Shown piece after piece: positions 2,753-45,605 of a DNA stretch of 64,000 nt (positions are counted from its first letter, which is position 1; each line of letters begins with the position of its first letter). This DNA is from Planctomycetota bacterium (GTDB taxonomy: Bacteria > Planctomycetota > Phycisphaerae > Phycisphaerales > SM1A02). The stretch covers positions 1 to 64,000 of the forward strand of contig JAAERN010000049.1 of NCBI GenBank assembly GCA_024230295.1. Reading direction: 5' to 3'. Made by a program: the position numbers and the translations under genes. The notes under the pieces are model-generated. The model made no database searches. It was not told the DNA's origin and saw only the letters and a program-made list of their open reading frames with translations.

Positions 2753-4414
2753 ATGACACCACCCATGACTGAACTCGCGCAGACCGCAGTATTTCTCATC
2801 AGCCCCTGGAAGCCCGTGTTGATCTGGGCAACCTTTATTGCATGGGCCTGGCTGGTTGGCAGTCGAATCGATCCGGACGCCCGCAATTATCAACTCGATC
2901 CAACAAAATGGAATCTCATCAACCTCTGCACTGCCATCATTGCATTCACAGTCATGCTGTTCGCGGGTTCGATCTACATCTCATGGATCATAGGCACAGC
3001 AGTCCTGCTCACGCCGATCTTGATCTACTGGAAGATCCGAAACCAAGCAGTCCCGGAATCGCGACGCTACACGCTCTTCAAGAAGAGCGAATCACCAGGC
3101 GAGCGAAAGAGACGCCGCAAGCAATCCAAATCAAAGGCATCGACGATGGTCTTCGAGGGAGCGGAGGGCGAGTTCCCCATCCCGGAGCCAAACGACCCGC
3201 TCTTGGACACATATCTGCAACTCGACAACCTGATGCTTCCAGCCATCCTGCAATCTGGCACACGGGTCGATCTCGCGCTCGGCAACAGCGGATTGGCGTC
3301 AGCCATCACCATTCAGTCGGTGCGAAATCCACAAGAACCGATCTCGGCCAGCGATGGCGCCAACGTCATCAACTTGATCAAACAGATTGCCGGTCTGGAT
3401 ATGACCGACACCCGGCGAACCCAATACGGTCACTTCACACTTTTGACCGCTTCAAATCAGCATAAGGTCACCGTCACTGTCACCGGTTCCTCGAAAGGCC
3501 AATTTGTTCGGCTCGACATCGACGAAGAAGGTCGAATCGTCAAACCTGTCGATATGCTCGGCTTCCAGCCCAGGCAGCGAGAACGCTTGGATGCATTCCT
3601 CAATCCCCAGCACCGCCATGGGATCATCTTGCTCACAGCCCCCAAGGGTCAAGGTCTTTCAACAACAGCCATCTCGCTGCTGCAACAGCACGATGCATAC
3701 ACAAGCAACTTGAAGATTCTGGAACGCCGGACGCTTAAACAACTTGAGGGCGTCGACCACGTGCAGTGGGATCCGTCGAACCCAAACCTTGACTTTGCAA
3801 CGAGCCTGCAATCAATTCTAAGGCGCGACCCCGATGTGGTTCTGACTGAAGCGCTCGATCCTGAAACAGTGCAGACCGCGTGCAGGTCTGGACGCGACGG
3901 AGCGCTGCAGTACATGGTCTTCAACGCCGACAGCTCAGCGGCAGCAGTCCGTTTATGGTGCCAGATGGCAGGCGATATTGAACTGGCAACCAAGCCATTG
4001 CGAGCCGTTGTGTGCCAGCGGCTGATTCGCGTGCTGTGCCCCGACTGCAAGCAGTCGTATGCACCAGCCGATCCGAGCAAACTCGGATTCCCGGATGGCA
4101 CGACCCTGTACCGATCCAGTGGGCAAGTCCAAGTTCGGAATCGCGTGGAAGATTGCCCGACATGCCACGGCACGGGCTATTCGGGCGTCACCGCAATCTT
4201 CGAAGTGTTCCCAGTTGACGAAGAGTGCCGACAGATCCTTGCTTCCGGCGATCTCAAGGCGGCGTTGATGCATGCCAGACGAAACAAGATGCTGCTGCTG
4301 CAAGAAGTGGGATTGCAGCGAGCAGCCTCGGGGATTACGTCAGTAGAAGAAGTATCTCGAGTGCTGGGCGGCGGGAAGCCAAAATCGGCATCAACCGCGA
4401 GCGGCAACGCCTAG
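2753..4414 (+). CDS. Membrane-anchored GspE/PilB-like protein with degenerate ATP site
   Basis: This 553-residue protein resembles the C-terminal ATPase part of GspE/PilB extension ATPases but is unlikely to hydrolyse ATP. Two hydrophobic segments (about 20-36 and 55-93) followed by a basic stretch (about 110-130) replace the usual N-terminal domain. The Walker A position reads APKGQGLSTT (about 296-305), so the invariant Lys is Leu. The Walker B region reads RDPDVVLTEALDPET instead of the usual VGEIRDxET. The zinc-binding cysteines of the family are kept as two CxxC pairs (about 429/432 and 468/471). It lies 5 bases after pilT and just before a CvpA-like gene. The start at 2753 could also be the ATG at 2765. 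A regulatory or scaffolding partner of PilT is an inference. Confidence 0.8.
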   Translation: MTPPMTELAQTAVFLISPWKPVLIWATFIAWAWLVGSRIDPDARNYQLDPTKWNLINLCTAIIAFTVMLFAGSIYISWIIGTAVLLTPILIYWKIRNQAVPESRRYTLFKKSESPGERKRRRKQSKSKASTMVFEGAEGEFPIPEPNDPLLDTYLQLDNLMLPAILQSGTRVDLALGNSGLASAITIQSVRNPQEPISASDGANVINLIKQIAGLDMTDTRRTQYGHFTLLTASNQHKVTVTVTGSSKGQFVRLDIDEEGRIVKPVDMLGFQPRQRERLDAFLNPQHRHGIILLTAPKGQGLSTTAISLLQQHDAYTSNLKILERRTLKQLEGVDHVQWDPSNPNLDFATSLQSILRRDPDVVLTEALDPETVQTACRSGRDGALQYMVFNADSSAAAVRLWCQMAGDIELATKPLRAVVCQRLIRVLCPDCKQSYAPADPSKLGFPDGTTLYRSSGQVQVRNRVEDCPTCHGTGYSGVTAIFEVFPVDEECRQILASGDLKAALMHARRNKMLLLQEVGLQRAASGITSVEEVSRVLGGGKPKSASTASGNA

Positions 4415-4434: not shown

Positions 4435-6150
4435 ATGCTTACCAATGTTGCCGTCATTCTGGTCATCGCTCTCCTCGCATATTGGTGGTCTAATCAAGGC
4501 TTCCTCAGTGCATTGCTGCATTTCATTTGCGTGGTGTGCGCTGCTGCAGTTGCATTCGCATGGTGGGAGCCTCTTGGCTTTGACATCATGCTTGGCACGT
4601 CAAAGTGGGGCGGATTGGCTCCCGGATCTGCCCTTCTGCTCTTGTTCTTGGTGTCGCTCCTTCTCTTGCGATCCATCTCCGACAAGATTGTAATTGGGAA
4701 TACTCGCATTCCTCGACCGGTTGATCTCACCGGCGGTGCCATCATTGGCGCTGGTGCTGGAGTCATCACAGCAGGCATGCTGGTAATCGGGACAGGGTTC
4801 ATCGCTATTCCGGCTGGCACAGGCGGCCACACAGGATGGAGCACCACGCTAGATGGCGGCGTCCATGTGGAAGCTGGAACTGGAGGAACCGATCAGGCCA
4901 AGCGTCTCTGGATCCCAGTTGACTGGATTACGGCGAGTCTCTTTGAAACAGTCAGCACCGGCTCGCTGCATCCAGATATCGGAGGCACACCGATGGCCGA
5001 TTGGAATCCATACTTGGATCGCCAAGCCACTCTCCTGCGTACGCGATTGGAAACAGCTGATCCATATGCAGCCACGCAGGTATTTCAAGCTCCAGGAACT
5101 GTTGAAGTGTCCCCCATGCTTCGATCAGTCGAAGAAAACGGTACGACATGGTGGATGTTCCCATTGAAGTTCTCCAAGAAGGGCATGGACCTTCAACGAA
5201 GTGTGGCCATTGGACCGACTCAGGTGCGGCTTGTCGGCACAACCGACGACGGCACCGCCATTCAATATCCACAGTATTGGTCTCAGACAATCATTTCCAA
5301 GAACGATGAAAATGGATCAAAGGTCTCGAGCAAAGGCTTCTTCCAATTTGCTAACGAGTCGCCCTACTTCTACGGGACCAGTCGCGACGAAGCAGACATA
5401 ACGCTTCTGTTTGGTTCTCAGGATGATTCATTCACACCAAAATTTCTGCAGATTCGCGGCACCCGCTTTGATCTTCCAGAATCCAGAGAAGAGGCTGATT
5501 GGGAGGAGTTCTGCCAGCGCGTGGGTGCAACCGGCTCGACAACCGACAGCGATAATCCATGGGGTGGAGACATTTCCCATCTCGTCGACATGAGAGGCAG
5601 CCTCCCAAGAGGCGCCCGCCCGAGTATCGGCGACTTCCAAGGCGGCTCCCCCGAATTCTCTGAGCGAGAAAGTCGCATTCTTCGGGCAGAGGCAACTCGC
5701 GTCGGCAACAAGTCGCGTGGCAAGGGCAAGCTTCGAGTCGGTGGATATGCCATTGAAAAGTTGGTCCAGCTCAGCAATGGAGAGCAGGAACGCCAACTTG
5801 ACAAAGACATGGCGATCATCAAGATTCGAGTAGGCCCGGGCACCACCGCTGACATCGCCAAGCTCGCTAGGCGTATGGGGGGAGACGGAGACATTCGCCT
5901 CCTTGATTCGGAAGGCGGGGAATACGCCCCCTACGGCTATGAACTCAAGAACGACTCAAAGACGATCATTTCATTCAATGTGCCATTGTCGCGGTGGAGT
6001 ACCGTCCGACATCGACCCAAGAGTGAGTCGGATGCGTTCTCCCTCATCTTCGTCATGCCCGTGGACATCGCGTTAGACCGGCTGATGCTCGACGAGGAGA
6101 GAATTGGATTCTTCGAGAACACGACTGCCGAATCCCCGAAATACCGTTGA
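4435..6150 (+). CDS. CvpA-like membrane protein with large extracytoplasmic domain
   Basis: The protein has 571 residues. The N-terminal 125 or so hold about four hydrophobic helices separated by short loops, in the style of CvpA (colicin V production) proteins; the remaining roughly 440 residues are soluble and polar. I do not recognise the soluble part. It contains repeated Trp, Gly and Pro positions and no obvious enzyme motif. The start ATG 4435 is supported by GGAAGGA at 4417-4423, although the frame is open upstream across the end of the previous gene. It follows the PilB-like gene by 20 bases, so it is probably co-transcribed with the two ATPase-like proteins. The CvpA assignment rests on topology only and is tentative. 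Confidence 0.7.
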   Translation: MLTNVAVILVIALLAYWWSNQGFLSALLHFICVVCAAAVAFAWWEPLGFDIMLGTSKWGGLAPGSALLLLFLVSLLLLRSISDKIVIGNTRIPRPVDLTGGAIIGAGAGVITAGMLVIGTGFIAIPAGTGGHTGWSTTLDGGVHVEAGTGGTDQAKRLWIPVDWITASLFETVSTGSLHPDIGGTPMADWNPYLDRQATLLRTRLETADPYAATQVFQAPGTVEVSPMLRSVEENGTTWWMFPLKFSKKGMDLQRSVAIGPTQVRLVGTTDDGTAIQYPQYWSQTIISKNDENGSKVSSKGFFQFANESPYFYGTSRDEADITLLFGSQDDSFTPKFLQIRGTRFDLPESREEADWEEFCQRVGATGSTTDSDNPWGGDISHLVDMRGSLPRGARPSIGDFQGGSPEFSERESRILRAEATRVGNKSRGKGKLRVGGYAIEKLVQLSNGEQERQLDKDMAIIKIRVGPGTTADIAKLARRMGGDGDIRLLDSEGGEYAPYGYELKNDSKTIISFNVPLSRWSTVRHRPKSESDAFSLIFVMPVDIALDRLMLDEERIGFFENTTAESPKYR

Positions 6151-35011: not shown

Positions 35012-35538
35012 AGGGCACCCTTCGAGTGCTCGGAATCGATCCTGGCCTGCGCTATACCGGCTACGGATGCATCGAAGTAGACGAAACTGGCACGGCGACC
35101 AAAGTTATCGAAGCTGGTGTCATCCGTGTTCCCCAGCGCAAGCCACTACCCGCGCGGCTGGCCTTCCTGCACGACTCATTGACCACATTGATGATCGACA
35201 CCACGCCGACGCTCGTTGTCATCGAGTCGGTCTTCGTTCACCGCGAACGCGCTCAGACCGCCATGCAGATGGGGCATGCCCGAGGCGTCATGTTGCTCAC
35301 GGCCGAGCAGCGAAGTATCGCCATCGACGAGTTATCACCAGCCGAAGTCAAACGCGCGGTCACCGGCAGCGGACGAGCGAGCAAAGAACAGGTCCAGCAC
35401 GCCGTCGCAGCCCTGCTCGGTCTCTCCCAAGTACCGGACCAACCCGATACCGCCGACGCTCTGGCCGTAGCACTCGCTGCAGCGCAACGCGCCGTGTCGC
35501 CTCGCGGAAGTGGCGAGTCGGAAGTCGGGAGTCGCTAG
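35008..35538 (+). CDS. ruvC: Holliday junction resolvase RuvC
   Basis: RuvC cuts four-way DNA junctions during recombination with RuvAB (176 aa). The catalytic Asp is in LGIDPGLRYTGYG, Glu in LVVIESVFVHRERAQTAM, and the last acidic residues in DTADALAVALAAAQ. ELSPAEVKRAVTGSGRASKEQVQHAV matches the family's DNA-binding segment. The start ATG 35008 overlaps the ABC ATPase stop. ruvA and ruvB are not adjacent. A terminator-like hairpin at 35808-35838 could end this transcript. Confidence 0.95.
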   Translation: MKGTLRVLGIDPGLRYTGYGCIEVDETGTATKVIEAGVIRVPQRKPLPARLAFLHDSLTTLMIDTTPTLVVIESVFVHRERAQTAMQMGHARGVMLLTAEQRSIAIDELSPAEVKRAVTGSGRASKEQVQHAVAALLGLSQVPDQPDTADALAVALAAAQRAVSPRGSGESEVGSR

Positions 35539-35586: not shown

Positions 35587-35627
35587 AAAAAAAAAGGCCC
35601 GGCAGCGGCAAAGCCGCATACCGAGCC
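35587..35627 (-). terminator. Intrinsic terminator of the candidate small RNA
   Basis: On the minus strand a stem made of GGCTCGG with CCGGGCC and an inner GCGGC with GCCGC is followed at once by nine T residues (nine A residues at 35587-35595 on the plus strand). No protein gene on this strand ends here. Confidence 0.8.
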
Positions 35628-35667
35628 CTTCCGGGGGCAAACTTGGTGCCGGGTGGGATACCCGACG
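35587..35667 (-). ncRNA. Candidate small RNA with own promoter and terminator
   Basis: No open frame of note lies here, but the minus strand has the parts of a short transcript: a sigma70-type promoter at 35674-35701, then a hairpin with 7-base arms (35648-35654 and 35660-35666) right at the predicted start, a CCC-GGAA-GGG loop near 35620-35635, and a strong GC hairpin (35596-35627) followed by nine Ts (35595-35587). The RNA would be about 81 bases. It does not match 4.5S SRP RNA, because the AGCA loop segment is missing, and it is not tmRNA, 6S or a tRNA. Function is unknown. Confidence 0.6.
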
Positions 35668-35673
35668 GGCGAA

Positions 35674-35732
35674 ATAATACTATCCAAACGGACCGCGTCA
35701 ACGACTGCTGATAAGAAATTTTAAGATAATTT
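35674..35732 (-). promoter_or_regulatory. Sigma70-type promoter with AT-rich upstream element
   Basis: The -35 box is TTGACG (35701-35696) and the -10 box is TATTAT (35679-35674), with a 16-base spacer. A run of A/T bases at about 35709-35732, unusual in this GC-rich segment, lies just upstream of the -35 like an UP element. Transcription would start near 35667 and go into the hairpin region. Confidence 0.6.
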
Positions 35733-35896: not shown

Positions 35897-37429
35897 ATGC
35901 CCACTCACATGATTCGAATTCTTCTCTTGTTCTTGGCGTCCACATGTGTCATGGCCGCCCCTCCGCTCACGCCATCGGCTTCGCCGCAGGCTGCAGCCAG
36001 TTCTGAGGCGCCTATTGATCGAGCAGCAGCATCTTTGGCAGCCGAGATTGCGGCCATCTCCCCACCATCACCTGATGACCCCGCCTGGCGGACGAAGGCG
36101 GCAGCGCTGATGGAGCAGGCACGCTCATTCAGTTCCGACTTCCCGAGCGACCCTCGCGGGATGGAAGTCATGGTCACAATTGCGATGATGCTGGGCGACG
36201 ATGAGCAAGTCGACGCTTCCATGCGATCGCTGCTCGCAATAGCGCCGAGCAAGATCTCCGCTGGGCTGGCCTGGGCGGAGTACTGGCTAGGCAAGGATCC
36301 CTCACGGGGGCGCGAGGTGCTGGAGGAACTCGTCACCAGCCGCCCCAATGCGATTCGCTACGCCCAGCGGCTTATGAAGACCTTGCTCGCGGAAGGGCCT
36401 GCGGCGGTTCGGGCCCGGTTCGATACGCTCGCGGCCAACCCCGCAACCCTCCCGCAGGCTGCCCGCGAACTCGACATTCTCGCCCGAGTCAATGGCTTGG
36501 CGGCGGCCTCGATCGGCGAGTCGCTTCGAGCCAACGAGCCGGACGACCTCCCACTTCTGATTGCAACGGCCCGCGGCTACCGGCATGCCAACCAATTCGC
36601 TGCAGCACGGCGACTCATGAATAGCGTCCCGGAAGCGCTGCTAACGGATCCGGCGCACGTCTACCTCTGGTCGGATGTGCACTATGCAGATCACGAGTTC
36701 GAGCGGGCCCGCGAACTGCTCGAATCGATTGACATGGACGCGCTCGAAGTTTCGGGACGACCGGGGCTGTTCCGCCGTCTGAAGTACATGATCCCACTGA
36801 GGCAGATCACCGCCGAGGGCTGGCCGGCAGAAGTTGAGAAGCGGGCCGCCGATGCCGCCAATGCAGACAATCCACTTGCCATGCTCGTCATCGAGGGACG
36901 CGAGGTCACAGTGGAACTCTTTGAGGACGATGCGCCGAATACCGTTGCAGCCTTCATCGCTGCCGCGGACCGGGGTCACTTCGACGGACATCCTGCGGGT
37001 CAGGTCCACCGCGGATTTCGCACCATCTTGGGCGATCGCCGCGAAGACGACGGCATGCCTCCATGGACGATTCCCGATGAGCACGAACTGCCCCAATCTC
37101 GGCCGATCCTCGCGGGCAATCTCGTGGCGTACCGCACCAGTCGACTCGACAGCGCCGACACAACTTTCTTTGTCCTGCACTTCCCGGCGCCGCACCTCAA
37201 CAATCAGCGAACGACGTTCGGCCGGGTCCTGACTGGTCTCGATGTCATTCGCGAAATGAACGAGGGGGATGTGCTCGACAAGGTCCGCATCACTCGCCGA
37301 CGAGCGCACCCGTACGACCCGATCGTCTTGGACGATCAGGGCGACCGCGTGCCACTATCAATTCTGCTTGAACGCCCCTTCGCCCCTACCGAAGATCCGC
37401 CGCCCCCAGCAGTCGAAACTCCTTCCTAA
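35897..37429 (+). CDS. Secreted cyclophilin-type peptidyl-prolyl isomerase with helical repeat N-domain
   Basis: This is an exported PPIase (510 aa) that would speed proline isomerisation of envelope proteins. The signal peptide is at about residues 5-22 (IRILLLFLASTCVMA). Residues 35-310 are helical and repeat-like in a TPR style. The C-terminal domain (about 325-490) has cyclophilin traits: VTVELFEDDAPNTVAAFIA, FDGHPAGQVHRGFRTILG, and TTFFVLHFPAPHLNNQRTTFGRVLTGLDVI. The catalytic FHR-type segment appears as VHRGF, so activity is plausible. The start could be ATG 35897 or ATG 35909. It overlaps the ACT-domain gene by 44 bases tail to tail. Confidence 0.82.
   Translation: MPTHMIRILLLFLASTCVMAAPPLTPSASPQAAASSEAPIDRAAASLAAEIAAISPPSPDDPAWRTKAAALMEQARSFSSDFPSDPRGMEVMVTIAMMLGDDEQVDASMRSLLAIAPSKISAGLAWAEYWLGKDPSRGREVLEELVTSRPNAIRYAQRLMKTLLAEGPAAVRARFDTLAANPATLPQAARELDILARVNGLAAASIGESLRANEPDDLPLLIATARGYRHANQFAAARRLMNSVPEALLTDPAHVYLWSDVHYADHEFERARELLESIDMDALEVSGRPGLFRRLKYMIPLRQITAEGWPAEVEKRAADAANADNPLAMLVIEGREVTVELFEDDAPNTVAAFIAAADRGHFDGHPAGQVHRGFRTILGDRREDDGMPPWTIPDEHELPQSRPILAGNLVAYRTSRLDSADTTFFVLHFPAPHLNNQRTTFGRVLTGLDVIREMNEGDVLDKVRITRRRAHPYDPIVLDDQGDRVPLSILLERPFAPTEDPPPPAVETPS

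Positions 37430-45531: not shown

Positions 45532-45605
<74 letters not shown>

Follow-up and report, generated by a model that had tools for sequence, protein, structure and literature searches.

The stretch of DNA analysed here (the window) comprises 64,000 nt of contig JAAERN010000049.1 from Planctomycetota bacterium, and all coordinates are window positions. Within the 358-bp gap between ruvC (Pfam RuvC), which ends at 35538, and a gene for a cyclophilin-type peptidyl-prolyl isomerase, which begins at 35897, the minus strand of positions 35587–35732 very probably carries the gene of a small RNA (sRNA). The RNA is directed toward the 3′ end of ruvC, and the two lie on opposite strands. The original prediction for this site had described on the minus strand an AT-rich tract, TTGACG, a 16-base spacer, TATTAT, a 7-bp hairpin, a GC-rich hairpin and nine Ts, together giving an RNA of about 81 bases, and all of these parts can be read directly in the DNA (Table 1). 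The 5′ hairpin begins 1–2 bases past the predicted start at about 35667. The proposal of a stand-alone sRNA gene is borne out in relatives, which share promoter, 5′ hairpin, linker and terminator. The part that we consider most telling, the near-invariant core GCCCCCGGAA of the linker, was absent from that prediction. The window's RNA folds with −43.5 kcal/mol (z −3.4), which beats all 200 shuffles. Relatives vary freely in the 5′ part, and for this reason the open reading frames at the site are not conserved.

Table 1. Parts of the predicted sRNA gene between ruvC and the isomerase gene (window positions).
Feature	Position	Strand	Basis or remark
AT-rich tract, UP-element-like, 5′ of the −35 element	about 35711..35732	−	sequence reading
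−35 element TTGACG	35696..35701	−	sequence and promoter scan; TTGAC[AG] kept in 8 genus members
−10 element TATTAT	35674..35679	−	sequence and promoter scan; TAT[GATC][AC]T with equal spacing in genus members
Predicted sRNA transcript, ~81 nt	35587..35667	−	start inferred 7 nt past the −10 element; end at the T tract
5′ stem-loop, 7 bp, GTCGGGT-ATCCC-ACCCGGC	35648..35666	−	fold and compensatory changes
Linker ACCAAGTTTGCCCCCGGAA	35629..35647	−	lies between the two hairpins
Near-invariant core GCCCCCGGAA within the linker	35629–35638	−	directly 5′ of the terminator
CCCCC of the core	35633–35637	−	predicted mostly unpaired
Terminator stem-loop, GC-rich	35595..35628	−	fold; compensatory changes on three alignments; GC-rich hairpin read by eye at about 35595–35632
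T tract, nine T	35587..35595	−	sequence reading

A blastn-type search of 61 relatives, which worked by similarity and without a motif pattern, detected the 3′ part of the RNA in almost every genome of the same family as well as in some others of the order. Forty-two homologues collected by overall similarity and aligned by sequence alone formed alignment A1 (68 columns), from which the covariance model R1 was built; a second model, R2, is more diverse. At E ≤ 0.001, R1 matches 161 of 251 sampled genomes of the order; in the window's genome it gives a single copy. A homologous segment in relatives, whose absence was said to speak against the original prediction, is present in 86 of 92 genomes sampled from the window's family (f1), mostly as a single copy and usually in one common syntenic block. 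The families f2, f3, f5 and f6 also have the RNA, with multiple copies being frequent in f5 and f6, and R2 brings in G438 as well as G346 and G350 of other families. The highest copy numbers are reached by G343 with 13 matches, of which four are weak (E 0.002–0.007), and by G387 with 12; the copies are dispersed. With the models used, the f4 genomes examined and genus g30 of f2 gave no match or a weak partial match only; no match was obtained in 7 genomes from other orders of the same class and no convincing match in the rest of the phylum. A weak match in G194, from another family of the phylum, was taken as chance due to its different layout and missing T tract. An exact pattern run against some 85,000 species genomes returned at least 120 loci. 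Among the 80 matches listed, wherever a record states a group it is a planctomycete one, in many cases Phycisphaerae, and a few records say just "uncultured bacterium" or "bacterium". Carriers of the RNA include the complete genomes ZRK34 (CP050848) and syqfu (CP087563).

In A1, CCCCCGGAAGGGCTCGG and CGGGCCTT contain invariant or nearly invariant positions and the apical part of the stem is variable. Across 146 non-redundant members, CCCCCGGAA carries 1.6–2.0 bits per position, the preceding G 1.0 bit and the 5′ flank at most 0.55 bits. Because these members were selected with a regular expression matching the core and a test for a hairpin, part of this invariance stems from the selection, and the set may hold a few false members, of which the entry labelled "window" is one. 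The same invariance of the core is obtained from A1, which was gathered by overall similarity. The CCCCC is predicted to be unpaired with a probability of 0.69–0.89 across the 146 members.

The terminator stem changes by compensation. Double-changed cells number 68 against 12.6 after shuffling in A1, 206 against 51.7 in A2 and 143 against 36.2 in A3, where A2 and A3 were fitted to the model structure and are hence biased toward it, and the true register of the stem outscores every slid register. Covariation, which had been suggested as a check on both stems, is strong in the terminator and modest in the 5′ hairpin. The latter forms with at least 6 bp in 9 of 9 genus members and shows 7 double-changed cells against 2.7 after shuffling in the genus; among five measures applied to it, further pair types did not rise above the shuffles, and the pairs changed on both sides were equalled by 87 of 500 shuffles. 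In family f2 the lower terminator stem is wholly exchanged (GGGCGGCG/CGCCGCC in place of GGGCTCGG/CCGGGCC), and G346 and G438 have further different stems. Despite this exchange CCCCCGGAA is retained in f2, G346 and G438, and G350 differs by one base of the C run. A conserved pairing of CCCCC with the terminator inside the RNA (GCCC/GGGC or CCCGG/CCGGG) was rejected, since the stem changes in f2, G346 and G438 and the linker does not.

The original prediction also called the promoter strong. The site indeed matches 10 of 12 positions in a promoter scan; however, 2 such promoters were found where 1.0 is expected, which is near chance, and the match by itself is weak evidence. More is gained from the relatives. 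Members of the genus have almost the same promoter, with T/A-rich sequence 5′ of it, in the position of the AT-rich tract in the relatives L010 and L012–L016 as judged by eye. A sigma-70-like promoter with a score of at least 8 lies upstream of the RNA on the sense strand in 69 of the 146 members, in comparison to 2 of 146 on the antisense strand and 4.1% in shuffles. The −10 ends form two clusters, 12–19 nt and 32–44 nt before CCCCC, which suggests a short form of the RNA and a long form with room for the 5′ hairpin. The terminator filter of the scan does not list the hairpin of this RNA, a probable consequence of the G-U pairs and the bulge in its stem and of the way the stem continues into the T tract.

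The RNA apparently represents an undescribed, order-wide (Phycisphaerales) family of sRNAs of a known kind. Rfam 15 gave no family above its gathering threshold, in agreement with the earlier view that the site is no tRNA and does not match transfer-messenger RNA (tmRNA), 6S or 4.5S/signal recognition particle (SRP) RNA; with E values up to 10 tried at the site, the best sub-threshold match was ctRNA_p42d with 20.2 bits where 50 are needed. Our literature searches, which left most subscription papers outside, returned no description of this RNA and no sRNA for this class. In layout it is most readily compared with Yfr1 of cyanobacteria, an RNA of 54–69 nt with two stem-loops and an unpaired linker containing an ultraconserved undecanucleotide, which is nearly ubiquitous in a large clade (PMC2190773). 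Yfr10 retains only the Yfr1 motif, and both act via a conserved single-stranded or loop motif (PMC6778093). Common to Yfr1 and the planctomycete RNA are the short length, the 5′ stem-loop, the unpaired linker with a conserved motif, the 3′ stem-loop and the wide occurrence within a clade. In contrast to Yfr1 with its ACUCCUCACAC, the planctomycete RNA has the core GCCCCCGGAA, belongs to another phylum, has no Rfam match, places the motif directly against the terminator stem and occurs in up to 13 copies. We therefore do not assign it to Yfr1: it shares the linker between two stem-loops, but ACUCCUCACAC is absent and the Rfam covariance model does not match. RoxS of Bacillus subtilis uses C-rich regions to pair with G-rich mRNA sites (PMC5419742); a C-rich region is common to both, whereas the planctomycete RNA has one near-invariant C5GG core and no Rfam match. 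Judging from a reference title (in PMC8628891), the actinobacterial 6C RNA binds mRNAs via C-rich loops without chaperones, and C-rich unpaired segments would thus be a shared trait. However, the Cs of 6C RNA lie in hairpin loops and those of the planctomycete RNA in one linker between hairpins, and due to this position and the missing Rfam match we rejected membership.

Regarding function, the RNA combines its own promoter and intrinsic terminator, an independence of its neighbours seen in signature and context, and an accessible conserved segment, as trans-acting sRNAs do. By analogy we consider it probable, with some reservation, that a stand-alone RNA of ~81 nt acts in trans, independently of Hfq, by pairing via CCCCCGG. 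As sequence and conservation suggest, transcription would run from a sigma-70-type promoter, with its start at about 35667, to an intrinsic terminator that ends the RNA at about 35587. Following the analogy, the exposed CCCCCGG may then pair with G-rich mRNA segments that probably lie close to ribosome-binding sites, and the pairing would lower translation of these mRNAs. Three traits of the linker recall a pairing seed: it is the sole part conserved in sequence, it is predicted to be largely unpaired and it has no conserved partner within the RNA. An Hfq-dependent sRNA was rejected, as Hfq was found in none of 31 relatives in a search whose positive control was detected. Several results weigh against the pairing model. 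Perfect 9-nt complements show no enrichment in the window's genome, with 10 sites against 9 for the reversed control, and most of them fall inside coding sequence or antisense to it; a strand-specific excess of complements of the core is not seen across 648 predicted start regions, in a test that is weak due to noisy start calls; and a weak pairing with the T tract is predicted for the GGAA of the core. Target assignment in the genus via the perfect complement TTCCGGGGG was dropped, since such complements are not in excess in the window's genome, and tandem repeats contribute to the excess in G006, G003 and others. In the relatives G003 and G006, DTTCCGGGGG is ~5 fold more frequent than its reversed control, partly in tandem repeats with steps of 9–30 bases. 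No small-subunit rRNA, considered as a pairing partner, was found in the window's assembly.

Because the target scans gave no direct support for base pairing, a second way of working stays in play, namely that GCCCCCGGAA of the stand-alone RNA binds a protein (CsrA via GGA, or another single-strand-binding protein) as a decoy without base pairing. The near-invariant GGA of the core, the presence of CsrA in 40 of 41 relatives, the raised copy number in f5 and f6, as a sponge might need, and the missing target signal in the complement scans would all fit such a decoy. Nevertheless we regard it as unlikely: each RNA has a single GGA, which is predicted to be weakly paired with the T tract and does not lie in a loop, CsrA would not require CCCCC, and f4 and genus g30 have CsrA yet, with the models used, no such RNA. 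CsrA sponges of the CsrB/RsmZ type likewise share with our case a GGA and CsrA in the genomes; they are a class with several GGA in hairpin loops, whereas one GGA, outside a hairpin loop, is read in the planctomycete RNA, which was therefore not placed among them. That the RNA serves the downstream gene, usually one for a YdjY-domain lipoprotein, as a cis-acting leader or attenuator is in our view very improbable. The RNA does lie directly upstream of a YdjY-domain gene on the same strand at 19 of 41 loci of a first set and 6 of 60 of a second; but this gene is absent downstream in the window and in other members of the genus, where the RNA is kept, additional copies stand beside many unrelated genes, and there is no conserved alternative anti-terminator pairing, since the stem changes without the linker. 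The nearest genes of 60 loci from other families take all four orientation patterns in nearly equal numbers (18/16/13/13). Due to this even spread and the persistence of the RNA where the downstream gene is gone, the context as a whole is in keeping with a free RNA rather than with a leader. Very improbable too, finally, is a mere conserved terminator or attachment site of integrating elements without RNA function. The five copies of G343 described below, with their phage-type integrase genes and homology mostly ending at the T tract, speak for it; promoters upstream of the RNA, the compensatory changes and the single syntenic copy per genome in f1, with no integrase among the neighbours checked, speak against it.

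The usual gene order in f1 is a PTPS/QueD-like gene (opposite strand), the RNA, the YdjY-domain lipoprotein gene (same strand) and ruvC (opposite strand). In the window's genus the PTPS/QueD-like and YdjY-domain genes are gone from this place, and the RNA abuts ruvC and persists. The emphasis of the original prediction on ruvC is thus correct for the window but secondary, since the usual place in f1 is one gene away from ruvC. In six f6 genomes (L236, L246, L275, L278, L282 and L290) one copy per genome precedes a YdjY-domain gene; as f1 and f6 share this neighbour, the place was probably inherited from their common ancestor. Other copies have varied neighbours. Gene calls were made by a simple open-frame method, and single neighbours may be wrong.

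An order-wide RNA defined by a motif in lineages lacking Hfq would offer a handle on post-transcriptional regulation there. The parallel with cyanobacterial Yfr1 would mean convergence on a fixed single-stranded segment between two freely changing hairpins, and genomes with many copies would be a natural series relating target choice to the variable 5′ part. Tentatively, and with more doubt than confidence, we speculate that a core regulatory RNA of Phycisphaerales controls how strongly many mRNAs are translated (or titrates CsrA) via one near-invariant 10-nt segment, that large genomes have amplified it to a dozen paralogues and that in one genome it is carried by integrase elements attaching at its 3′ end.

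That genome is G343 (Planctomycetes bacterium syqfu), in which five near-identical copies of the RNA (L239–L243, minus strand, near 3007–3135) sit 42–50 nt downstream of a gene for a tyrosine recombinase of 466–468 amino acids; the one recombinase tested has Pfam Phage_integrase. The homology between these copies mostly stops at the T tract of the RNA, as if integrating elements used the 3′ end of the RNA gene as attachment site; the pair L242/L243 is similar beyond it. A phage origin of the RNA was rejected, since no phage record matches. In G375 (L289) two degenerate copies without a clear T tract (2968–3027 and 3503–3567) lie ~535 bp apart and are possibly remnants or recombination sites. 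The sole Rfam match in the window is a tRNA gene at 45532–45605 on the plus strand. Genus g19 has two copies of the RNA ~100–800 bp apart, several times oppositely oriented; in L033 (G026) they stand beside ruvC and the isomerase gene, at 5017–5070 on the plus strand and 5255–5307 on the minus strand.
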